From positions 1-57,502 of IMG/VR virus record IMGVR_UViG_3300028410_000013: 57,502 nucleotides of DNA. One strand, written 5' to 3'. Source of the DNA: a virus. Position numbers and translations under genes: made by a program. The notes under the pieces are model-generated. The model had not been told where the DNA came from. It searched no databases and was given only the letters and a program-made list of their open reading frames with translations. Below are positions 373 through 37,774 of this stretch, piece by piece (positions within the stretch are counted from its first letter, which is position 1; every line of letters begins with the position of its first letter).

Positions 373-471
373 ATGTCAGACCGGAAACTAAGAGCCAGCC
401 TCATCAAACTCGCCTACGAAAATCCCGAGCTTCGGGCTGATCTGCTCCCTCTTTTTATGGGGTGGGATTAA
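373..471 (+). CDS. 32-residue ORF made almost entirely of a recurring Leu/Arg tag motif
   Basis: The short ORF contains LIKLAYENPELRADLLPLF, almost the same as a segment inside the 360-residue protein near 43.05 kb (VIRLAYEQPSLRKDLLPLV) and related to the N-terminus of the gene at 1666 (LIRLGSVRKDLRPHIRPLL). Recurrence in separate genes argues that it is real coding sequence. It ends in a TAA that is in frame with the HTH-actin gene. Only that stop and one GCC codon separate the two, so stop readthrough would fuse the tag to the next protein. Upstream AAGGAAAAAATC gives a reasonable Shine-Dalgarno. Function unknown; amphipathic helix-hairpin-like, possibly a docking or packaging tag (inference). 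Confidence 0.55.
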   Translation: MSDRKLRASLIKLAYENPELRADLLPLFMGWD

Positions 472-474
472 GCC

Positions 475-1650
475 TTGCCGAAACGAATCGACATAGACCC
501 CGGCGATCTGGCAGATGCTCTTTCGACCGGGGCCACCTATGACGAGATTGCAGAGACCTACGGGTGCTCTGCTTCAACGATTGCAAAACGAGTCAAAGAG
601 TATGGACTGGAAGCCGAGGCTTCTGACAGTGAGGGAAGTAAAATGAGTGAAGACAAGAAAGCAGCATTAGGAGTGGGCCTCGACATCGGCACGATGAACA
701 TCGTCGCTGCCCGGAAGGTAGATTCTAGCGTAGAGACGAAGCGCATCCGTGATGCGTTCCTCGACTTAGAAGCAGAGGCAAAGAAGATGCTCAATATGAG
801 TGGTGTGTCTTACATCGAGTACGAGGACAAAATCCTCATTCTGGGAGACCCCGCTATTGAGACTGCAAACCTCTTCAAGCGAGAGGCGCGCCGCCCCTTG
901 TCACAGGGTCTTATCTCAGCTTCTGAGATTGACGCCCTTGAGGTGCTTTCTATCTTGATTGAGAATGTGGTGGGTGAGCCTCAGGAAGACAATGAAGTCT
1001 GCTATTACTCTATCCCAGCCGCCCCACTCGATATGCCGGGCCAAGATGTTCTCTACCATGAGGCGGTCTTCGCCAAGATTCTAGAAGAGCTTGGGTACGA
1101 CGCTATCTCAGGTAATGAGGCGATGGCTATTGTTTACTCAGAGTGTGCCGCAGATCAATTCAGCGGCATCGGTATCTCATTCGGTAGCGGCATGGTCAAC
1201 TGTGCCCTCTCGTACATGACGATGCCTATCATGGAGTTCTCACTTGCCCGTGGCGGTGACTGGATTGACCGTAACGCTGCGAATGCAGTGGGTTCAACTG
1301 CCAGCCGCCTTTGCTCCATCAAAGAGAAAGGGCTAGACCTGACGCAGCCAAATAGTCGGGAAGAGGAAGCACTGGTCGTATACTACAAGAGCCTCATCAA
1401 GTATGCACTAGACAACATCTCCAAGAAGTTCAAAGAGACTCAGAATGACACGGAATTGCAGAAATCGATTCCCATTGTCGTCAGCGGGGGTACCTCCCTA
1501 GCAGGAGGCTTCCTCGATCTGTTCAAGGAAGTATTTGAGAAGCAGCGGAATCGTTTCCCAATCGAAATTAGTGAAATCCGGCAAGCCGAAGACCCTATGA
1601 CCTCTGTGGCTCAGGGCCTTTTAGTGCAGGCCATGCAAGAGTACATCTAA
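475..1650 (+). CDS. HTH domain fused to an actin-like (ASKHA) ATPase
   Basis: A 391-residue protein. Residues ~8-45 form a helix-turn-helix (TYDEIAETYGCSASTIAKRV), then an acidic linker. From ~65 on there is an actin/Hsp70-fold ATPase: phosphate-1 loop GVGLDIGT (66-73), phosphate-2 loop GISFGSG (233-239), adenosine loop SGGTSLAGG (337-345). These are the hallmark motifs of ParM/MreB/FtsA-type filament ATPases. The long form starts at TTG 475, immediately after an in-frame TAA. An internal ATG at 643 (residue 57) has its own Shine-Dalgarno (GAGGGAAG), so an ATPase-only form may also be made. Phage actin homologues move or segregate DNA. A DNA-binding domain in the same chain would combine adaptor and filament roles that are separate in ParR/ParM; that role is inferred. 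Confidence 0.8.
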   Translation: MPKRIDIDPGDLADALSTGATYDEIAETYGCSASTIAKRVKEYGLEAEASDSEGSKMSEDKKAALGVGLDIGTMNIVAARKVDSSVETKRIRDAFLDLEAEAKKMLNMSGVSYIEYEDKILILGDPAIETANLFKREARRPLSQGLISASEIDALEVLSILIENVVGEPQEDNEVCYYSIPAAPLDMPGQDVLYHEAVFAKILEELGYDAISGNEAMAIVYSECAADQFSGIGISFGSGMVNCALSYMTMPIMEFSLARGGDWIDRNAANAVGSTASRLCSIKEKGLDLTQPNSREEEALVVYYKSLIKYALDNISKKFKETQNDTELQKSIPIVVSGGTSLAGGFLDLFKEVFEKQRNRFPIEISEIRQAEDPMTSVAQGLLVQAMQEYI

Positions 1651-2875: not shown

Positions 2876-4657
2876 ATGTACAAATACCTAACCAGAGCAG
2901 TCAAGAAGCGGATCATGGAGACTCTACGATTCTGCTTCGACGCCAATCCTCAGCACAGGGATGTGGTTGACCATATTCGTGAGAAGTACAGCTTCGACGA
3001 AAGGCCGCAGAAGGGTATTGTCATTCAAGGTGCTTCGGCCTCCCCACAGTCTCTGTCCTCCGACAACTATATCGGGTCACTTTACTCCTATTTGATGCTA
3101 GCCAAGGTAGACGACTACCGGGGGACAGCACTTGAGTGGGTACGGGAGGATGATACTGCTATACGGGCCAACGGTAACGTGTTTCCCTCGGAGCCGGGCG
3201 TCTATTACGTCCAAGTAGAAGAGGTGGAGCTAGCCGGTGAGGTGAATGAGTTTCAGTTCTATGTTGACCCCCTGCTCACTATCCGGCAAGAGCCAATCAT
3301 TCAATTCCAGACGGGCACCGAACAGAATGCTATTCTGACTCACGCCCCGGTGCTGGAAAACAGTGTAAGGCTCTACGAGTACCCCAACCAGCCTTTATTC
3401 ACGGGGACCGCTATCACATTAACAGCCGATGAGTCTTTGGAACTAGGCGGCTCTGGTACGCATGTGGCACTTGGTCTTCCTACGGGGCAGATACCTGTAA
3501 CCGTCACAGGGTCGAATACTCAGCCCTTCACGGTGACCAGCGGGACAGATGATGTTCTATCTTTTGAGCTTAACGGCACGGCAGTGTCCGTGACCTTCAC
3601 GGCAGGGACAGGGATTCTGGCAGACGACATCGCTTTGGAAATTGAAGCCGCGATTATCGCTGCCGGAGTGGATGGGCTGACCTATTCGGTAGGTGTGTCC
3701 AGTGGTGCTGTGTCGATAGATGCCGATGTTTCTTTGTCTTTTGACGCTGACCTAACCTCGACGGCCAACCCACTGCTAGGCTTTACGGAAGGCTTTGTGC
3801 CGGTGTCCGTGACGGGCCTTATGGTAGAGCCGACTGTCCCCTCTAGCGCAACCTTTAAGGCTGTGGTGGACGGGGTAGACCGGGAAATAGCTCTTTTAGA
3901 AGGCAATCAGGCGGTCACAGAAATTGCTAACCAGATATTGACTGGCTTTTCCACTACTTCTCTGGGCGTATCGACCGGCGACGCAGGCGATTACTCCTTT
4001 GACCCGCAGACTGGAGAGATAACGTGGCTTCGGACATTTGTTCCGGGCACGCAAGTTCTTGCAGACTACCGTTATCCCGTAGCTACCCGTGGACCTTATC
4101 CTATCGGAGTAGGGGAGGTCGCTAACAATGAAGCCATCCCCGGCGCTGTCCTCGCTTTCGGAAAGGAACTGGAAGACCAAGACGTTATGGCGGTGGTAGT
4201 AGAGGGTACCCGTTCGGAGGTAGCAGATGCCTATGGAGGCAAGTTCAACGTTTCCTTAGACATTGACATCATTGCACGGGATTCGATGACTCGTAGCGAG
4301 ATGGCGGACCTCATTGTGATGTACCTCTGGCAGTGGCGTAGAGAGAGACTGGCAGAAGAGGGTATCATCATCGAGGACGCATCCTTCGGCGGCGAGTCCG
4401 AGGAACCATACGACGAGACTGGAGACGACTATTACTATATGGGCAACGTGTCGCTGACGCTTCTAACTGATTGGGAGATATTGATTGCCCGGCCTCTCTA
4501 TATCACAAGGGTAACGCCGTACAGCTTCGACCAAGATGCACAGGTGGCCGCAGCGCAGGATGGCATCCTTTTGGATAGCCCAGACGGGTTTGAGTTTAGT
4601 GACGCAGCTACCATCTACCGGGTTGACCCGTTAGGTGGTTTTGAGAAGCTGAGATAA
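2876..4657 (+). CDS. Virion structural protein, probably tail/neck associated, with inserted beta domain
   Basis: A 593-residue protein. The N-terminal ~150 residues and C-terminal ~200 residues look like one conserved phage structural fold (ends with VSLTLLTDWEILIARPLYI, a beta-rich core). Between about residues 200 and 310 sits an inserted domain (FTVTSGTDDVLSFELNG and following), strongly like the repeated inserts in the sheath protein two genes downstream. Position between small proteins and the sheath suggests a neck, tail-terminator or tail-completion role (inference). The start is ATG 2876; residue 14 (Met) is an alternative. The upstream Shine-Dalgarno is poor. Confidence 0.65.
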   Translation: MYKYLTRAVKKRIMETLRFCFDANPQHRDVVDHIREKYSFDERPQKGIVIQGASASPQSLSSDNYIGSLYSYLMLAKVDDYRGTALEWVREDDTAIRANGNVFPSEPGVYYVQVEEVELAGEVNEFQFYVDPLLTIRQEPIIQFQTGTEQNAILTHAPVLENSVRLYEYPNQPLFTGTAITLTADESLELGGSGTHVALGLPTGQIPVTVTGSNTQPFTVTSGTDDVLSFELNGTAVSVTFTAGTGILADDIALEIEAAIIAAGVDGLTYSVGVSSGAVSIDADVSLSFDADLTSTANPLLGFTEGFVPVSVTGLMVEPTVPSSATFKAVVDGVDREIALLEGNQAVTEIANQILTGFSTTSLGVSTGDAGDYSFDPQTGEITWLRTFVPGTQVLADYRYPVATRGPYPIGVGEVANNEAIPGAVLAFGKELEDQDVMAVVVEGTRSEVADAYGGKFNVSLDIDIIARDSMTRSEMADLIVMYLWQWRRERLAEEGIIIEDASFGGESEEPYDETGDDYYYMGNVSLTLLTDWEILIARPLYITRVTPYSFDQDAQVAAAQDGILLDSPDGFEFSDAATIYRVDPLGGFEKLR

Positions 4658-5203: not shown

Positions 5204-8200
5204 GTGGCATTTGGACCATTTGATAGTTACGCTCCCCCCGGAGCATACACAAAAACTAAAGTCCGTCAGGACACTTCTGGACCTCCTACTGGAAACCGTA
5301 TCCCGGTTCTGGTTGGAGTAGGTCGGGAGACTCTTGCACAAGAGGACTCTGAACTAGTCCGGGGATCTTCATCCTCAGTGGATCAACGAATTGTTAATGA
5401 GGACATGAACGATAGGTTCATCCTCGACAACTCGAACCCTGATAACCCTATTCTGGGTACAAAGACCGGTGCGGAAGCTCGGTTCCGTGTTCAGAACTTC
5501 CCCATCGTCGCAGGTGACGGTCGTGGTCAGACGACTACCGACCTGAATGATGTGACGGTAACTGTTGATGGCGATCTGGTATCTCCCGCCGCTGTTGATG
5601 GTGCACGGGGTGTTATCACGTTGCAAGTTGCTCCTGAGGAAGGTGCGGACGTTCGCATCACCTATTTCTTCAATCGCACGGACACGTCTTTCACCGATGA
5701 CGTTTCGGATCAGGTCACTGATGAGCAGGCTATCCTGCTTTCGACGCAGGTGGAGACCTACGAGATTGTCTCAGGGGCGAATGTTCTTTCGCTCAATGTG
5801 GACGGTTCCGACGTGAGCATTACCCTTAATACGGGCGCTGCTCGGACAGCCAATAACGTGGCCAACGATATCAACGCTGCCGCTGTGGTGGGACTTACCG
5901 CCTCTGTGGACGCTGATAATCAAGGACAGAATCGCATTCAGTTGGCTTCGGACGGGTCGCTTACGGTCCTTTCCGGTACTGCCAACGCTGCGCTTGGCTT
6001 TGCAGCGGGTCAGACCTTAAATAGAAGACGACGGTTCTTCACTTACCAAGCTCCTATTGTAACGGGAGACAACGGCGGTATCACCACGACGAACCCCGCC
6101 GATGTGACGGTAACTGTTGATGGTACCGAAGCCACCGTTGAAGAAGTGGATGGTACCAACGGATCGGTTCTCCTCGCACAGGCTCCTCTCGTAGGATCGG
6201 AAGTTGTTGTTACTTACTTCCACAACACATGGCAAAATACGTTCGACTACCTGCCTAATACCGGTATCGAAAGCGTCCAGCGTGTGGGAATTAGCCCCGG
6301 TCGAACTGACTACATCGAGGGCAACGATTACGTTGTTGACTCGAATGGTCGTATTATCTGGGGCAACGCTGTCACTGTAGAGTCGGCCCAGCATACCGCT
6401 GGTACCGAATTCTTCGATGACACACAGATCACTGCTTCGCTTCGTGATGACCGCATCTTCTTTGAGGCGGTTGAAAAGCTCGTCGAACGGTCGGTGTCTC
6501 CAGCACAAGAATCGGATACCACTGTCGTTCTCGGTAACGTGCCGACAGTAGGAAACGGAAGCAACACGCCTCTGGATTCGGCTCTGTTCGCATCTCTATC
6601 AAATGATAGAGTGAGTCTGGGGACTCACCGCGCGGATCTGGTACTCGTCTATCACGGCTCCAATCTTTCTGAGGCTATGGCTGAGGGTCCGGTTGAAGTT
6701 GTAGACGTGAACCCGGTTAACCGTCAGGTTACGGTTGCAGACGCAATCCCGCCTGACCATAACGTATGGGCCACTTACTGGTACAACCGCCTCGCAGACG
6801 ACGAACTCACTTTTGAAGTGCTCTCGCAGTCTATACCGGGCGTAGCAGGCCAGTACAGCATTCTGTCTTCCCGCTTGGGTGAGCAGATGCTCGGCGTAAG
6901 CTTCGGCACTACAGGCGTATCTGAGACTATCCAGTGGCCTTCTGGAGTAGAGTCCAACCCTGATGCTTTCCTTACGGGAGCTTCGGGGGTTAATGAAGTG
7001 GTGACCATCACGTTCACCTCTGAGGGTGCTACCCCAGCCGTGTATACGAACTTCGAGACCGACCCGTACTCCTTGTACGCTAATGCCTCGGACACTCTCT
7101 ATGTGAACGTCAGCAGTAACGACCTTACTGTGGACCTCAATCAGAGCGCCTTTGCTGTCATTGTCTCGGATTCCGATGCAGACGGCCTTTACACTGTAGC
7201 TACGGGCACAAACGACAGCTTTGAGTTTGAAGTAGACGGCACTGCTTACACCACGACCTTCACGGCTGGTGCAGGCATTGCAGGTGCTACACTTGCAGAA
7301 GAAATCTGGAGAACGGTACCGACCACGGCTGTGGTTGATGGTACGGCTCAGGATACTGCTAACGGCGGCGCAGACTTTGTGATTGCAGGCTCTACAACAT
7401 ACAGTGTTGAACTTAACGGCACGACGTACACAGAAGCTGATACAGCACTGGTCGGTGGCACATACGACGCAGCCGCAGCCGCAAGCGCCATTGAAACGGC
7501 TCTCGCTACTGCCTCTGGCCTGACCGCCGGTGATCTGAGCGTAGTAGGTAACGACTTTAATGTCGTCGCCAATGCCGATGGTACTGTGAGCATACAGGCT
7601 ACGGACTCGGTGACGGTAAACACGACGGTCAATGGTGGGGATGAGCTTGATACGATCATCGGGTTTTCACCTCTTGATACACAACAGGTCAACACCAAAG
7701 TCGCACTGTACTCCAACAACCGATTCCTGCTTCGTTCCAAGGTGGAACCTGCCGGACCGGGAGATGTTAGTGAGGTACGCACGCTTGACGGGTCGGCTAA
7801 CGACCTCATCGGGTTCGCAAACTTCCAGACAGCAACGGGTACAGAAGCCGCAGTCAACAAGCCTGCAACACTTCTCAGCGGTGCAATTAGCTCCGCCGAC
7901 ATCGCCTCTCTTGACGCTTCCTCAGATTCGTTTGTGGTCGCAGTTGATGGCGTAGAGTACACCGTACCTTACGATGGTGTGTCTGTTTCTTCGGTTGCCG
8001 ACATTGCCACAGAGATTGACGGTATTATTTCAGGGACCGCAGTAGTGGAGGACACGGATAAGATTCGTATCACATCCAGTGTTTCCACCACCGCTTCTCG
8101 GATTGAAGTCCGCAACGGTTCTGCGAACCAGTACGTTGGCTTTGATAACGGGGATGCCGCTTCTCAGCGTCAGGTTACAGTTGAAGAGGTGGTCGCTGTT

Positions 8201-9784
8201 CTTAACAGCGAAGCTGCTTCGGACTGGTATGCTCCGGCCTCAGGCACAGACTTCATCGCTTCGGCCTTCGCTGAAGCTTACGAAGTTACAGGTGAGGGTA
8301 CCTACCTCCGCCTCACGACCTTCGGCACTGGCGCTACAGAATCCTTCACGTTCTCGACGGGAGCGGATTCGGCCCTTAATGATACAGGCATCGGCATCGA
8401 GGCAGGTGATACTGCCGCAGGAACCGCTGTCATGGACGGCTTCACAGTAAGCTCAGACCGAGGAGCCGAAGGTTCCGCAGGTACGGGTATTGTAGGCCAG
8501 ACATACACCGATGACACTACAGGGCTTCGTTTCACGATCCTCGAAGCCTCTGGTGGTGACTACACCGATACACAGAGTTTCACGCTCTTGGTATCGGACA
8601 CGTTCGAGACTGGCGTATCTAACGTCGTTCGGGCGGTTCCGGGAGCCGAGATCAGTGTCTCGAATACTACTGACATCGGTGTCGGGGACACGGCACTCGT
8701 CCAGACGTACAATCAGTCTGGTTCGGAGCCGGGGATTGGTGATTTCTACTATATCACCTACGAGTATGAGAAGACAGACTTCACCGCTTCTCTATTCACT
8801 CGCTTCCGTGATATTCAGTCCAACTTCGGTACACTGTCGGCTGAGAATCCTCTGACACTGGCATCGTTCCTGACATTCCTTAACGGCGCTGCCGTTGTAG
8901 GTATCAAGCAGGTGGAGAAGCAGACTGGCTTCGGTCAGGCGTCTTCTCAGGCGTACTTAGATGCTCTCCAAGAGCTTGCCCGCCCTCTGGCTGGTGGAGC
9001 TACACCGGACCTTCTGGTACCGCTTACAACAGATCCCTCAGTGTTGGGGGCTTATGTCCGCCATGCTGAGATTCAGTCGTCACAACGCTTCCGACAGGAA
9101 AGACGCTGCATCTTCGGTGTAGCATCGGGCACACGCCCAGATGACGCGGCAGCAATCGCTCAGGGTCTTAACTCTAAGCGTGCTATCGTAGTCTACCCCG
9201 ACAGTGCGATTGTCACGCTCTCCAACGAGCTTGGTGATGAAGAGAACTTCATTGTCGACGGAACCTACATCGCCGCAGCACTTTCCGGTGTATTGGTAAG
9301 TCCTCAGTTTGACGTGGCAACACCTCTGACTCGACGACGCATTACAGGTTTCCGCCGCCTTAACCGCAGCCTTGACGAGGTGGAGAAAAACCGTCTCGCT
9401 GTTGCGGGTGTCACGGTCCTTGAAGATCGTGGAACCTTCTTGCAGGTGCGTGATGGTCTGACAACAAATGTCAGCAACCGTTTCACGTCCACGCCTTCCA
9501 TTGTTGCAATCGAAGATTTCGTACAGCAACAGACACGAGCAACATTGGACCGGTTTATCGGTCTTAAGTTCCTCACGTCAAGGTCGCAGGATGTCGAGGC
9601 AGCACTGAGTGGTCTTCTCAACGCCCTTGTGGAGCAGCAAATCATTGTGGACTTCCAAGGTGTTCGAGCAGAGCCGGATCAGACTGACCCGACTACACTT
9701 CGGGTGAGTGCTTTCTACGCACCGGTATTCCCGCTCAAGTACATCCCGGTCACCTACACGATTGGGGTCAGCGGTTCGCTTTGA
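5204..9784 (+). CDS. Giant contractile tail sheath protein (1526 residues)
   Basis: The N-terminus (MAFGPFDSYAPPGAYTKTK) and the last ~350 residues (RRITGFRRLNRSLDE, then DRFIGLKFLTSRSQDVEAAL, ending KYIPVTYTIGVSGSL) match the organisation of myovirus sheath subunits, whose C-terminal domain forms the inter-subunit mesh. Typical sheaths are 400-700 residues. Here ~800 extra residues sit between the conserved ends. They contain two copies of a DVTVTVDG module (about residues 100-165 and 283-345) and several copies of a flagellin/Ig-like insert (about 185-275, 655-705, 725-820, 890-1000), also found once in the 593-residue protein upstream. Start codon is GTG 5204. A strong terminator follows, so it ends a transcription unit. 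Very high expression is expected. Confidence 0.9.
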   Translation: MAFGPFDSYAPPGAYTKTKVRQDTSGPPTGNRIPVLVGVGRETLAQEDSELVRGSSSSVDQRIVNEDMNDRFILDNSNPDNPILGTKTGAEARFRVQNFPIVAGDGRGQTTTDLNDVTVTVDGDLVSPAAVDGARGVITLQVAPEEGADVRITYFFNRTDTSFTDDVSDQVTDEQAILLSTQVETYEIVSGANVLSLNVDGSDVSITLNTGAARTANNVANDINAAAVVGLTASVDADNQGQNRIQLASDGSLTVLSGTANAALGFAAGQTLNRRRRFFTYQAPIVTGDNGGITTTNPADVTVTVDGTEATVEEVDGTNGSVLLAQAPLVGSEVVVTYFHNTWQNTFDYLPNTGIESVQRVGISPGRTDYIEGNDYVVDSNGRIIWGNAVTVESAQHTAGTEFFDDTQITASLRDDRIFFEAVEKLVERSVSPAQESDTTVVLGNVPTVGNGSNTPLDSALFASLSNDRVSLGTHRADLVLVYHGSNLSEAMAEGPVEVVDVNPVNRQVTVADAIPPDHNVWATYWYNRLADDELTFEVLSQSIPGVAGQYSILSSRLGEQMLGVSFGTTGVSETIQWPSGVESNPDAFLTGASGVNEVVTITFTSEGATPAVYTNFETDPYSLYANASDTLYVNVSSNDLTVDLNQSAFAVIVSDSDADGLYTVATGTNDSFEFEVDGTAYTTTFTAGAGIAGATLAEEIWRTVPTTAVVDGTAQDTANGGADFVIAGSTTYSVELNGTTYTEADTALVGGTYDAAAAASAIETALATASGLTAGDLSVVGNDFNVVANADGTVSIQATDSVTVNTTVNGGDELDTIIGFSPLDTQQVNTKVALYSNNRFLLRSKVEPAGPGDVSEVRTLDGSANDLIGFANFQTATGTEAAVNKPATLLSGAISSADIASLDASSDSFVVAVDGVEYTVPYDGVSVSSVADIATEIDGIISGTAVVEDTDKIRITSSVSTTASRIEVRNGSANQYVGFDNGDAASQRQVTVEEVVAVLNSEAASDWYAPASGTDFIASAFAEAYEVTGEGTYLRLTTFGTGATESFTFSTGADSALNDTGIGIEAGDTAAGTAVMDGFTVSSDRGAEGSAGTGIVGQTYTDDTTGLRFTILEASGGDYTDTQSFTLLVSDTFETGVSNVVRAVPGAEISVSNTTDIGVGDTALVQTYNQSGSEPGIGDFYYITYEYEKTDFTASLFTRFRDIQSNFGTLSAENPLTLASFLTFLNGAAVVGIKQVEKQTGFGQASSQAYLDALQELARPLAGGATPDLLVPLTTDPSVLGAYVRHAEIQSSQRFRQERRCIFGVASGTRPDDAAAIAQGLNSKRAIVVYPDSAIVTLSNELGDEENFIVDGTYIAAALSGVLVSPQFDVATPLTRRRITGFRRLNRSLDEVEKNRLAVAGVTVLEDRGTFLQVRDGLTTNVSNRFTSTPSIVAIEDFVQQQTRATLDRFIGLKFLTSRSQDVEAALSGLLNALVEQQIIVDFQGVRAEPDQTDPTTLRVSAFYAPVFPLKYIPVTYTIGVSGSL

Positions 9785-10646: not shown

Positions 10647-10673
10647 TTGACAGACAGGTCAGTTGTCTGCAAT
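10647..10673. promoter_or_regulatory. Palindromic operator overlapping a -35 element before groEL
   Basis: TTGACA (10647-10652) is a perfect -35 and runs into an inverted repeat: CAGACA (10651-10656), GGTCAGT, TGTCTG (10664-10669). The expected -10 region (CAATAT/AATATG) is poor, so expression may need an activator or be repressed through the palindrome. Confidence 0.5.
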
Positions 10674-10713
10674 ATGGCGACCTACCGGTGATATTACCCT
10701 TACGGAGAGCAAA

Positions 10714-12360
10714 GTGGCTCAGAAAAAGACGATTCTATTTGATGACAAAGCCTTGAACCGATTAGGCGCAGGCGTGAATACCTTGGCCGATGCGGTCAAA
10801 GTCACACTCGGCCCACGTGGTCGGAATGTGGCTTTGGACAAGAACTTCGGGTCTCCCAACGTAACCAAAGATGGTGTGTCGGTCGCACGGGACATTGATC
10901 TTGAGGACCATTTTGAGAACATGGGCGCTCAGGTCATTAAGGAAGCTGCCATCCGAACAGCGGAAGAGGCTGGAGACGGCACCACCACTGCCACGGTTAT
11001 TGCCCAAGCTCTCTTCAACAACACACGCAAGCTTGTAACCGCAGGTTTGTCTCCTATCCCCTTGAAGCGAGGCATGGATAAAGCTGTGTTGGAGGGTGTC
11101 AATTACCTCCACCATCTTGCCAAGCCTATCTCCAAGGCAGAGGAAATCAAATGGGTTGCCTCTATTTCATCAAACGGCGATGATGCGCTGGGCGAACTCA
11201 TCGCAGAGGCGATGGAAAAGGTAGGCAAGGGCGGCGTCATTTCTGTTGAAGAGGGCCGCTCCACTGAAACCACCTTGGAGTTCACTGAGGGGATGCAACT
11301 AGATCGTGGCTACATCCACCCAGACTTTGTGCGTGGCGAGGAGAGTGGTACTCTCTCTTACGAGAACCCTCTTTTGCTCATTGCAGATGAGCGAGTGTCG
11401 AGTGCACAAGACCTTCTCCCGGTGATGGAGTACGCCGCTTCTCAGCGTCGCCCTCTTGTTGTTATCGCCCACGATGTAGAAGGCGAAGCAATGATGATGC
11501 TTCTGTCTAACCACGCCCAAGGGACACTCAAGAGCCTTGCAATCAAGGCCCCACGCATCGGGGACAAGCGGACAGCCTTGCTTGAAGACCTTGCTATCCT
11601 AAGCGGCGCAACTCTCGTCTCTAAAGAGCGCGGCAATACGCTGCAAAGCCTCCACCCGCAGCAGCTTCTTGGAGGGTGCGATTCGGTATCTTGTGACAAG
11701 AATCGCACCACTCTTCTGGGTGGTGACGCTGATTTGGAAATCATTGAAGACCGCATCAAGACATTGCGGTCGCAAGCTAAAAGTGCCGGTTCCCCTCATG
11801 ACCAAGAACACCTCCAGAAGCGCCTGTCACAGCTTGGTGGAGGTATGGCCGTGATTCGTGTTGGGGCCAACTCGGAAGTGGAACTCAAAGAGTACAAGGC
11901 TCGTGTAGAAGATGCCCTGTCAGCTACCAAAGCAGCCGTAGCTGGCGGAGTTGTGCCCGGTGGCGGTTGCACCCTACTGGAGGTCAGCGCCCTGCTTAAG
12001 GATATTGCTTCCGACCCCAACACTGTCTTTGCCTCTATTGAAGAGCGAGAGGGGTGGTTGTTGGTAGCTTCTGCGGTTGAAGCTCCGTTCCGCCAGATTG
12101 TCAAAAATGCGGGACTGTCCGCAGACGTACTCTTGCATCAGTATCGCACAGCCTCCGAAGAACGAGGCCAGAACGACTTGGTGTACGATGTCAATGCGGA
12201 AGAAATCCGACCTTGCTTTGAGGCCGGTATTGTTGACCCGGTATTGGTAGTGGAGCAGAGCTTTACAAACTCTGTTTCGGTTGCATCTACGCTACTGACT
12301 ACATCATGTGCTATCGGGTTCTCGTCTGATTCCAACAAGGATGACGAAGACGAGAACTAA
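10714..12360 (+). CDS. groEL: GroEL-type chaperonin (group I, phage-encoded)
   Basis: ATP-driven protein-folding chamber subunit. The chosen start GTG 10714 (GTG GCT CAG AAA) has GGAGAGC upstream and places the N-terminus where GroEL starts; an in-frame TTG at 10663 would add 17 unlikely residues. That gives 548 residues. Signatures: VTLGPRGRNVALDK, TKDGVSVA, the nucleotide loop GDGTTTATV, the substrate-binding apical domain with EGMQLDRGY, and VVPGGG near the C-terminus. Compared with host GroEL the middle is divergent (GGCDSVSCDKNRTTLLGG) and the C-terminal Gly-Gly-Met tail is replaced by an acidic DSNKDDEDEN. No GroES is seen in the window, so it must use a host or distant co-chaperonin or work alone, as reported for some jumbo phages. 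A terminator follows. Confidence 0.95.
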   Translation: MAQKKTILFDDKALNRLGAGVNTLADAVKVTLGPRGRNVALDKNFGSPNVTKDGVSVARDIDLEDHFENMGAQVIKEAAIRTAEEAGDGTTTATVIAQALFNNTRKLVTAGLSPIPLKRGMDKAVLEGVNYLHHLAKPISKAEEIKWVASISSNGDDALGELIAEAMEKVGKGGVISVEEGRSTETTLEFTEGMQLDRGYIHPDFVRGEESGTLSYENPLLLIADERVSSAQDLLPVMEYAASQRRPLVVIAHDVEGEAMMMLLSNHAQGTLKSLAIKAPRIGDKRTALLEDLAILSGATLVSKERGNTLQSLHPQQLLGGCDSVSCDKNRTTLLGGDADLEIIEDRIKTLRSQAKSAGSPHDQEHLQKRLSQLGGGMAVIRVGANSEVELKEYKARVEDALSATKAAVAGGVVPGGGCTLLEVSALLKDIASDPNTVFASIEEREGWLLVASAVEAPFRQIVKNAGLSADVLLHQYRTASEERGQNDLVYDVNAEEIRPCFEAGIVDPVLVVEQSFTNSVSVASTLLTTSCAIGFSSDSNKDDEDEN

Positions 12361-15106: not shown

Positions 15107-15525
15107 GTGTTCTAAAGTGGACAGCGCCCCATCGGTCACAACCTGCCACCGTTCGTGAGTTGGTGACTCTCTTTAAGTTTGAGCCAACGGACGAGGGTTT
15201 TCTGGTCCGAAAAATCGAGGCCGGGACGCATTGGCGGGAGGTCAAGATCAAGGTCAAATCTAAAGAGGTCATCTTCTACGTGCATAAGGAAGAGGAGTCT
15301 ACTACTGAGATTTACTTTGAGTACCTGTTCGAGTCAGGCTTCATTTTTGGGCAGATAGCTAACGCTCTACAGAACCTCCCCCAGCGTGGCGTCGACGAAG
15401 ATGATGACGAAGATGATGACGAAGATGATGACGAAGATGATGACGAAGATGATGACGAAGATGATGACGAAGATGATGACGAAGATGATGACGAAGAAGA
15501 CTCAATGGAGTTAGAGGGAGACTGA
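15103..15525 (+). CDS. Unknown protein with hyperacidic (DDDE)n tail
   Basis: A 140-residue protein: ~98 residues of ordinary alpha/beta sequence, then a ~35-residue tail of only Asp and Glu encoded by a 12-bp tandem repeat, ending DSMELEGD. Such tails mimic nucleic acid or bind basic proteins or divalent cations; the role here is unknown. Start overlaps the upstream stop and its own stop overlaps the next start (TGATG), so it is coupled on both sides. Confidence 0.65.
   Translation: MSVLKWTAPHRSQPATVRELVTLFKFEPTDEGFLVRKIEAGTHWREVKIKVKSKEVIFYVHKEEESTTEIYFEYLFESGFIFGQIANALQNLPQRGVDEDDDEDDDEDDDEDDDEDDDEDDDEDDDEDDDEEDSMELEGD
15394..15501 (+). repeat. 12-bp tandem repeat GACGAAGATGAT (8 perfect copies plus 1 imperfect)
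   Basis: Eight perfect units at 15394-15489 and one degenerate unit to 15501, in frame inside the acidic-tail gene. Perfect conservation at synonymous positions implies recent expansion by slippage, so copy number is likely variable between isolates. Confidence 0.95.
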
Positions 15526-16818: not shown

Positions 16819-16831
16819 CACTATCCTTTAC

Positions 16832-16861
16832 GACCCTGTTCACGACGACCCTGTTCACGAC
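16832..16861 (+). repeat. 15-bp tandem duplication in intergenic spacer
   Basis: ACGACCCTGTTC is repeated in tandem (unit about 15 bp, two copies) in the 48-bp gap before the next start codon. No evident function. Confidence 0.6.
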
Positions 16862-16866
16862 CACTT

Positions 16867-17610
16867 ATGATTATTAACCGATTCCAAGATGCCCTTTTCT
16901 ACAAGGCAGCTTCCGACGCTCTAGGATTGAGTCTGTACTCCTATGAGGACATCACAGACACGACTTTCCACGCAGACGTAGCGGTAGGGGATTTCTTCTT
17001 ACAGTACCGTAGACCCTCTTTTAGGGGTTGTACGAGATACGTGTCCCCTTCCCCGTACACGATAGATGAGACACTAACGTTACCTGCTATGCTTCGGTAT
17101 GAGAACCTAGCAAGGCCCAAGGTCGGCTTCGTGAATCCCACTACGGAAGTGGCTTTTCCTGCTTTCAGAATCATGCGAGTTTTCAATGTGGCATCTTCAA
17201 ATGACCACTGTACTTCTTTTTCTGCTCATTCTGTCTACAGTGGCCATTGGGGGTTCCGCCAACTCCACCCCCAAGCAATATCTTCAAGAAAATCAGATAA
17301 GTGGTGGGACTCTTACCTCACCACTTCTGTCTACCATCGTGATCTCATACTCCGAAAAGGTCCGCCAGAGGAGTCTCGGGGTAGGACCGGGATAATTGGC
17401 AAATTTACGGACCCGGACAAGCTTCTTGAACACTTCTCAAAACATACCATCATTCCTGCGATTGGTAAGTATCACACTCAGGGTGTAACTGTGTACTCAC
17501 CTCAAAGATCCTTCTACCCCCTTTGGAGGGCTTTGATTTCGGATGAGCCGGAACGCCCCTCTGTTGTAGCGACCGTCAAAGAATACCTCAGTCGAGAGAG
17601 TTTAGTATGA
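16867..17610 (+). CDS. Unknown 247-residue protein
   Basis: ATG 16867. No recognised family. Tyr/Phe/Ser-rich alpha-beta sequence with a notable ISSRKSDKWWDSY segment; the central stretch (17190-17300) is of lower quality and an overlapping +1 ORF there looks like a signal peptide. Its stop overlaps the start of the MBL-fold gene (ATGA), implying coupled expression and perhaps related function. Confidence 0.6.
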   Translation: MIINRFQDALFYKAASDALGLSLYSYEDITDTTFHADVAVGDFFLQYRRPSFRGCTRYVSPSPYTIDETLTLPAMLRYENLARPKVGFVNPTTEVAFPAFRIMRVFNVASSNDHCTSFSAHSVYSGHWGFRQLHPQAISSRKSDKWWDSYLTTSVYHRDLILRKGPPEESRGRTGIIGKFTDPDKLLEHFSKHTIIPAIGKYHTQGVTVYSPQRSFYPLWRALISDEPERPSVVATVKEYLSRESLV

Positions 17611-18386
17611 AGATGACATTTTTAGGTACAGGTGGGGCATTCAGCCGCCGCCGTCAGAACTACCACAACAACGTTCTACTTGAGTCTGAGGGGAAGAAGT
17701 ACCTCATTGACTGCGGGACGACAGCCTTGGAGAGCCTTGGAGAGCTTGGGCACGATATTATGAGCTTGGATGGCGTCGTTATCACACACCATCACGCCGA
17801 CCACATTGGTGGCCTTGAAGAGCTAGGCTACCAAGGCTACTTTGTAGGGGACAAACGCTTTGAGCTATATGCTCCGGCACTTCTTGTACCTTCTGAGGTT
17901 GGGAGCGAAGGCATCGACCTGTGGGACAACTCGCTGCGGGCTGGTATGGAGCACTTACAGGATAGGGAAGGTAACCCCCTTAAGGCCACGCTAGCGACCT
18001 ACTTTGACGTGCACCCGGTGCCTCACCCAGAGGCTGTTGTCCAACTAGGTGGTGTGAAGATAGCCTTTTTCAAGACAGACCACGTGCCGGACATGCATTC
18101 TTTTGGATTGATGCTGGAATCAGAGACAGGTACTCGTGTGTTCTACTCAGCGGACACGACATCAACTTCATTCCGTCACTTGCCGGAGTTTGATATTGTG
18201 TTCCATGACTGCTCTTTCAGGGACCATTACCCGGCTACCGTTCACACTCACTTTGAGGAATTGATTTCTCTGCCTCCCGTGGTAAGGTCGAAAACATACC
18301 TTATGCACTACGGGGACATTGAGACAGCCCCGAAAGACCTACACGGGATGCAAGTGGTGCGGAGGCATCAAGCCTTTGAGTTGTAA
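17607..18386 (+). CDS. Metallo-beta-lactamase-fold hydrolase (tRNase Z/Apyc1-like)
   Basis: A 259-residue metal hydrolase. The N-terminus MKMTFLGTGGAFSRRRQNYH resembles RNase Z-type MBL proteins. The zinc motif THHHADHIGG (~60-69) supplies HxHxDH, and downstream metal ligands are likely in FKTDHVPDMHSFG, YSADTT and LMHYGD. Size and layout fit both tRNA 3'-processing enzymes and the phage Apyc1 family that hydrolyses cyclic nucleotide defence signals. No long exosite arm typical of bacterial RNase Z is evident. It overlaps the upstream gene by 4 bases. Fold certain; substrate unknown. Confidence 0.85.
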   Translation: MKMTFLGTGGAFSRRRQNYHNNVLLESEGKKYLIDCGTTALESLGELGHDIMSLDGVVITHHHADHIGGLEELGYQGYFVGDKRFELYAPALLVPSEVGSEGIDLWDNSLRAGMEHLQDREGNPLKATLATYFDVHPVPHPEAVVQLGGVKIAFFKTDHVPDMHSFGLMLESETGTRVFYSADTTSTSFRHLPEFDIVFHDCSFRDHYPATVHTHFEELISLPPVVRSKTYLMHYGDIETAPKDLHGMQVVRRHQAFEL

Positions 18387-37601: not shown

Positions 37602-37682
37602 GCCGGAGTGGTGGAATGGCAGACACGCCGGATTCAAAATCCGGTGCCTTCGGGCGTGCGGGTTCGAGTCCCGCCTCCGGTA
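37602..37682 (+). tRNA. trnL-CAA: tRNA-Leu (anticodon CAA)
   Basis: Class II tRNA: acceptor GCCGGAG/CTCCGGT, anticodon stem CCGGA/TCCGG with loop TTCAAAA (anticodon CAA), variable arm TGCCTTCGGGCGT, T arm GCGGG-TTCGAGT-CCCGC. Confidence 0.94.
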
Positions 37683-37691
37683 CTTATGACT

Positions 37692-37774
37692 GCGGGTGTG
37701 GTGGAATGGTATACACATGGGACTTAAAATCCCACGGCTTAACGGCCTTGAGGGTTCGAATCCCTCCACCCGCA
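37692..37774 (+). tRNA. trnL-UAA: tRNA-Leu (anticodon UAA)
   Basis: Class II tRNA: acceptor GCGGGTG/CACCCGC, anticodon stem TGGGA/TCCCA with loop CTTAAAA (anticodon TAA), long variable arm, T arm GAGGG-TTCGAAT-CCCTC. Confidence 0.94.

Follow-up and report, generated by a model that had tools for sequence, protein, structure and literature searches.

Our analysis supports the view that a gene near the start of a 57.5-kb IMG/VR virus record (hereafter the window, i.e. the whole stretch of DNA analysed, apparently a fragment) belongs to a huge tailed phage and encodes an actin of the volactin family, joined in the same chain to an N-terminal helix-turn-helix (HTH). By sequence or structural model, the core has an actin fold, the HTH fusion is conserved in frame within one clade, and the gene lies near a tail sheath gene. 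In the model that we tentatively favor, at a little under an even chance, this protein would form a phage actin filament late in infection, to which a DNA-tethering domain has been added in the HTH clade, and it would be made both with and without the HTH. The records compared are all metagenomic, and many of them are fragmentary.

The fusion gene (475..1650, plus strand) starts with TTG and encodes 391 amino acids; a 100% identical copy is present in L002, and fused homologues occur in L005, L012, and L017. Its product is a single chain with a trihelical HTH (residues 1-45, 475..609), a disordered and little conserved linker (residues 46-56, 610..642), and an actin-fold core (residues 57-391, 643..1650, all on the plus strand). 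TTG 475 is the sole ATG, GTG, or TTG in frame between a stop codon at 469-471 and ATG 643, and the fact that this only candidate start for the HTH aligns with an ATG in L005, L007, and L017 argues that the fusion is real. A Shine-Dalgarno (SD)-like sequence, GGGGTGGG (459..466, plus strand), lies upstream of TTG 475 with a duplex energy of -9.2 kcal/mol with the anti-SD, whereas the HTH starts of fused relatives lack an SD (-2.9 to -3.6 kcal/mol); the long, HTH-bearing form could therefore be rare. A mini-ORF of 32 amino acids (373..471, plus strand; stop TAA at 469-471) is in frame with the fusion gene, ends 3 nt before it, and consists of a recurrent tag (MSDRKLRASLIKLAYENPELRADLLPLFMGWD). 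This tag of ~28 residues, MSDLKxxLIRLGxxNPELRPHLxPIL, is found at the N-terminus, and sometimes more internally, in many proteins from this phage group that are unrelated in the rest of their sequence (window 373-471 and 1666-1752; L005 from 4623; L007 from 3047 and from 7120; L196, L197, L199, and L200).

The core matches the Volactin profile (PF25216, E 3e-80) from position 3 to 321 of 321 with 269.9 bits against a cut-off of 35, and it is 41% identical to the megaplasmid volactins of Haloarcula and Natrinema, which score 447-466 bits on the same profile. In the AlphaFold2 model of the 391-residue chain (66-row alignment, pLDDT 92, pTM 0.81), the actin-fold core begins at approximately residue 62, and the nearest solved structures by fold search are MamK, MreB, BeeR, crenactin, and actin. 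The filament form of MamK (5ljv) is the best match among solved structures (TM 0.62 by query, 0.74 by target); the sequence match to this magnetosome actin is weak (~17% identity), and MamK differs in having no HTH and in possessing the phosphate-2 Asp. The nucleotide-site motifs phosphate-1 (D70), connect-1 (E215), and adenosine (GGT) vary little or not at all across 66 aligned sequences, the phosphate-1 Asp and connect-1 Glu being invariant. In each of these 66 members, Ser replaces the canonical phosphate-2 Asp, as it does in the aligned haloarchaeal volactins, making this substitution a trait of the family rather than a defect of the window gene. The window protein has the same phosphate-1 motif and phosphate-2 Ser as volactin, the family of Haloferax volcanii VolA (HVO_2015), while its gene differs from the haloarchaeal genes in being phage-encoded, in lying near a tail sheath gene, and in having an N-terminal HTH and linker and an internal start. 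In H. volcanii, volactin assembles into dynamic filaments in vivo and has an effect on cell shape (PMC10869688). Searches with the actin core gave no significant match in PHROGs, and the BFVD fold search returned remote viral models, some of them Hsp70-like and some unnamed, but no named volactin. A reading made earlier from the sequence alone had set the protein beside ParM-type systems; kinship with ParM is ruled out by Pfam, which assigns the core to Volactin, and by Foldseek, which points to MamK and MreB and names no ParM among the 50 matches listed.

The N-terminal domain has a trihelical fold (helices 9-17, 22-29, and 33-42 in the AlphaFold2 model), and an alignment of five homologues reveals a conserved, basic recognition helix (KRVKEY). 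Against single Pfam HTH models, the window HTH stays below the curated cut-offs (HTH_23, E 4e-4), whereas its relative in L017 passes that of HTH_23; the window HTH is 57-61% identical to those of L012 and L005 and 36% identical to that of L017. Among the nearer lineages, the fused HTH has a pN of ~0.3 against a pS of ~0.7-0.8, i.e. purifying selection with synonymous sites near saturation, while the linker has a pN of 0.55 and a pS of 0.60 and a pLDDT <50 at residues 49-59. In-frame fusions of this HTH to actin occur in four divergent lineages (the window, with L002 and L011 identical; L004-L006; L012/L013; and L017), and no volactin loci examined beyond these four carry such a fusion. All four sit in one seven-member clade (support 94/95; the window sequence is row L011 of the tree) together with the HTH-less actins L003, L007, and L015. 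Row L011 did not bear an HTH label in this tree, and the label statistics, covering three of the four fused lineages, were set aside. A chance HTH-like stretch is ruled out by the AlphaFold2 model and by the fact that four lineages conserve the HTH in frame. The sequence-only reading of HTH and actin-type ATPase as one chain is thus borne out by the structure prediction, the Volactin match, and the fusion in four lineages.

The same reading had pointed to ATG 643, with an SD of its own, as a start for actin alone, and this start is credible. The internal SD, GAGGGAAG (631..638, plus strand), pairs with the anti-SD at -7.0 kcal/mol, approximately within the best 5% of the in-frame ATGs of the window, and a GGAG-like sequence lies 7-8 nt before the internal ATG in 4/4 fused genes (-7.0, -6.7, -6.9, and -6.8 kcal/mol), with GGAG precisely 7 nt before it in L005, L012, and L017 (-6.7 to -6.9 kcal/mol). 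Only ~5-10% of in-frame ATGs in the window have duplex energies as good as those of the internal ATGs of the fused genes. Residue 57, encoded by ATG 643 and the first residue of the predicted HTH-less product, is the counterpart of the start of HTH-less relatives, in which actin begins near this position (MSEDKK; MSENEK, MSDDTV, MSDDNS). Because ATG 643 matches this start, and because the SD spacing is nearly fixed in all four fused lineages, the gene likely gives rise to two products, HTH-actin from TTG 475 and actin alone from ATG 643, as judged from sequence. The persistence of the SD despite near-saturated synonymous sites and a diverged linker points to a retained internal ribosome site; alternatively, the Gly/Arg-Ser pair encoded at this place may be constrained at the protein level.

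Volactin genes are widespread in IMG/VR, where our viral scan recovered at least 289 relatives on contigs of up to 618 kb, while just two of 50,697 phage-collection records, both of them huge metagenomic phages (485 and 595 kb), have one. In a set of 79 non-redundant loci, mostly from phages and approximately ten from cellular metagenome-assembled genomes (MAGs), the neighborhood is conserved. A large protein encoded downstream of volactin (2876..4657 in the window, plus strand) has a homologue in 56/79 loci, a Zn-ribbon protein accompanies volactin in 53/79, and two conserved upstream proteins are present in 58/79 and 50/79. The tail sheath gene (5204..9784, plus strand; phrog_2839, E 4e-31) lies near volactin in 53/79 loci, at a median distance of 2.4 kb downstream. 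The window sheath protein is unusually large (1526 amino acids), and the known sheath family matches its C-terminal part only. Twenty-one of the 22 large volactin-bearing records have one copy and one has two, namely the 297-kb contig of L024 and L042, with two volactin genes in a single phage record; the two rows of G021 represent one volactin gene interrupted by an intein. Matches in cellular assemblies are from Planctomycetota and Magnetococcales MAGs and from two archaeal MAGs.

Volactin genes are also a focus of homing elements. One family of nuclease ORFs lies directly 5' of actin in L003, L007, L061, L082, L108, L141, L191, and L192, and its homing-endonuclease-like members (L003:3933-4889, L007:4046-4960, L061:3135-3917, L082:5199-6005, L108:1181-2047, L141:5100-5978, and L192:2548-3351) combine an HTH or C2H2 finger with NUMOD3 and a Vsr-like nuclease. 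By Pfam, the L003 and L007 proteins have HTH, NUMOD3-like, and Vsr/DUF559 parts, while the N-terminus in L061, L082, and L192 reads as a C2H2-type zinc finger and not as an HTH; the copies in L058 and L161 are broken or partial. When the endonuclease itself served as query in a separate scan, seven relatives were found at ≥46% identity, 7/7 of them directly 5' of a volactin gene, whereas three distant relatives (27-31% identity) had no volactin in the stretch examined. The insertion inside the L005 actin gene is an intein with a LAGLIDADG domain, located at codons R259/G260, just before the conserved GGDWID motif (L005:5784-6878; L007:5628-6722); the position is occupied in L005, L006, and L007 and empty in the window (1249..1254, plus strand), and in L191 the actin is interrupted at the same place by a stretch of similar size (L191:3516-5636). 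Flanking endonucleases and inteins thus concentrate on a single cytoskeletal gene.

These elements bear on the origin of the fused HTH. It resembles the HTH of the Vsr-like endonucleases, although the window gene has neither NUMOD3 nor a nuclease domain: a profile of the fused HTH gives the endonuclease HTHs higher scores than 2000 shuffled controls (best E 7e-9; hhalign 96%), and the second endonuclease HTH of L003 is 37% identical to the fused HTH of L012. In IMG/VR, a scan with the HTH alone gave matches solely at volactin loci, and a search of the 50,697 phage-collection records gave none. In L007, HTH and linker form a separate ORF that is split from actin by an insertion including such an endonuclease. 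At L007:3541-3981, HTH, linker, and MDEEK start are followed by a different C-terminal part resembling the N-terminus of the neighboring nucleotidyltransferase (polyA polymerase head type). Judged from sequence, an origin of the HTH in such an element is plausible but unproven, since good profile scores are also possible between homeodomain-like HTHs that are unrelated. A stronger version, in which a homing endonuclease inserted directly 5' of the volactin gene lost its nuclease part while its DNA-binding module, captured or left over, remained fused to actin and now has a minor role or represses its own operon instead of tethering filaments, is a serious contender that we consider somewhat doubtful. 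The location of all seven scan relatives, the further complete or broken copies at volactin loci, the profile and identity values, the restriction of this HTH type to volactin loci, and the split in L007 speak for it. Purifying selection across a near-saturated synonymous distance argues that the fused HTH is not a decaying leftover, the ambiguity of HTH profile scores applies here as well, and repression of the own operon is at odds with the lack of a free operator region, the mini-ORF stopping 3 nt before the start.

In the tethered-filament model, volactin would be made late, together with virion parts, and would polymerize with ATP. Initiation at TTG 475 would yield HTH-actin and initiation at ATG 643 actin alone, such that some subunits of mixed filaments might expose flexibly tethered HTH heads and, assuming that these bind DNA, hold the filament to it, most likely to phage DNA at packaging or assembly sites. 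In phages lacking the HTH, and hence a DNA anchor within the protein, the same filament might carry out its basic job, intracellular transport or positioning in virion assembly. Counting for this model are the Volactin match, the MamK/MreB-type fold, and the dynamic filaments in H. volcanii (PMC10869688); the confident HTH with its conserved recognition helix, purifying selection, and in-frame fusion in four lineages; and the internal SD at nearly fixed spacing and the conserved neighbors including tail sheath. Counting against it are the lack of a DNA-binding site or centromere array among the sequences searched, the SD-less HTH start in fused relatives, the phosphate-2 Ser (though also haloarchaeal), and the presence of HTH and actin as two genes in L007.

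The sequence-only reading had instead proposed a one-gene DNA positioning or segregation device, a compressed ParMRC or AlpAC in which actin pushes or pulls phage DNA whose centromere is bound by the HTH. The domain make-up fits this proposal, and the AlpC/AlpA/alpS system of prophage CGP3 provides a precedent for movement of phage DNA by a phage actin through an adaptor, the actin AlpC and the DNA adaptor AlpA being separate genes there (PMC4446434, PMC5539076). The window protein and these systems have in common an actin-like protein and a DNA-binding part, and with AlpC also the phage setting; AlpAC and ParMRC have a separate adaptor gene, repeated DNA sites, and an actin of another family, whereas the window has one chain and no sites were found in it. 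Regarding the separate DNA-binding adaptor gene of type II segregation systems, the HTH is fused in the window, L005, L012, and L017 and separate only in L007. A search of the 57.5-kb window and of 100 kb of the L005 contig, both incomplete genomes, detected no iteron or centromere-like array; among tandem and dispersed repeats in the window nothing was convincing, the 12-nt GACGAAGATGAT array (15394-15497) lying inside an ORF and ACGACCCTGTTCACG (16830-16861) being only a two-copy intergenic repeat. Given also that most relatives lack the HTH, that the gene is located in the tail module, and that the core is volactin and not ParM, we consider such a device improbable. DNA positioning or segregation as the function of the window gene is unproven, and segregation is unlikely to be the core job of the family, because in most huge phages the gene has no HTH and lies near the tail sheath gene.

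Two further explanations appear remoter still. The HTH might bind protein rather than DNA, as the HTH of RodZ does with MreB, and regulate the filament in cis or recruit a partner; the complex of MreB with RodZ (2wus) sets a precedent and is also among the fold matches of the actin part, but the RodZ HTH is larger and of Cro/CI-type, whereas the window HTH is short, trihelical, and homeodomain-like with the basic, conserved KRVKEY helix and a disordered tether, leaving this option very improbable. Hardly credible is a monomeric ASKHA enzyme or regulator, either similar to ROK repressors, which include chains of HTH and ASKHA, or Hsp70-like. The sequence-only reading had named a monomeric Hsp70- or ROK-like enzyme as one outcome that would speak against it, and no ROK or Hsp70 match in Pfam and no ROK family in PHROGs was found; the fold is of the actin type, with MamK, MreB, and actin ranked first.

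Plasmids, bacteria, archaea, and a Corynebacterium prophage are known to encode actins. In the jumbo-phage reviews that we searched, tubulins are the only cytoskeleton described for such phages, and a literature search with partial coverage (few subscription journals and preprints) found no paper on a phage volactin or an HTH-actin fusion. If our model is correct, the haloarchaeal-type actin that many huge phages encode near their tail sheath gene would constitute a second viral cytoskeleton, and the clade with a fused DNA-binding head would offer a natural experiment on the acquisition of a cargo-binding adaptor by a filament. The PhuZ tubulin of jumbo phages, also a phage-encoded cytoskeletal filament in large phages, is a possible functional analogue with a tubulin/FtsZ fold instead of an actin fold. 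None of the 22 volactin-bearing records has a match to the Pfam tubulin model (PF00091), a model that may miss PhuZ-type tubulins. We speculate, as a scenario that is unlikely in its entirety, that huge phages without detectable tubulin use a volactin cytoskeleton in virion assembly and that one clade captured an endonuclease HTH, generating a self-tethering, DNA-bound filament with the number of anchors per filament tuned by two starts.

Finally, we note that the window also encodes a phage GroEL-type chaperonin (10663-12360; phrog_5725, E 6e-149) and an anti-Pycsar Apyc1-like protein of the metallo-beta-lactamase fold (17607-18386; Pfam PF23023, E 4e-34), and that it contains, at 37602-37732, two similar stretches of 41 nt, 90 bp apart, that resemble putative tRNA 5' halves.
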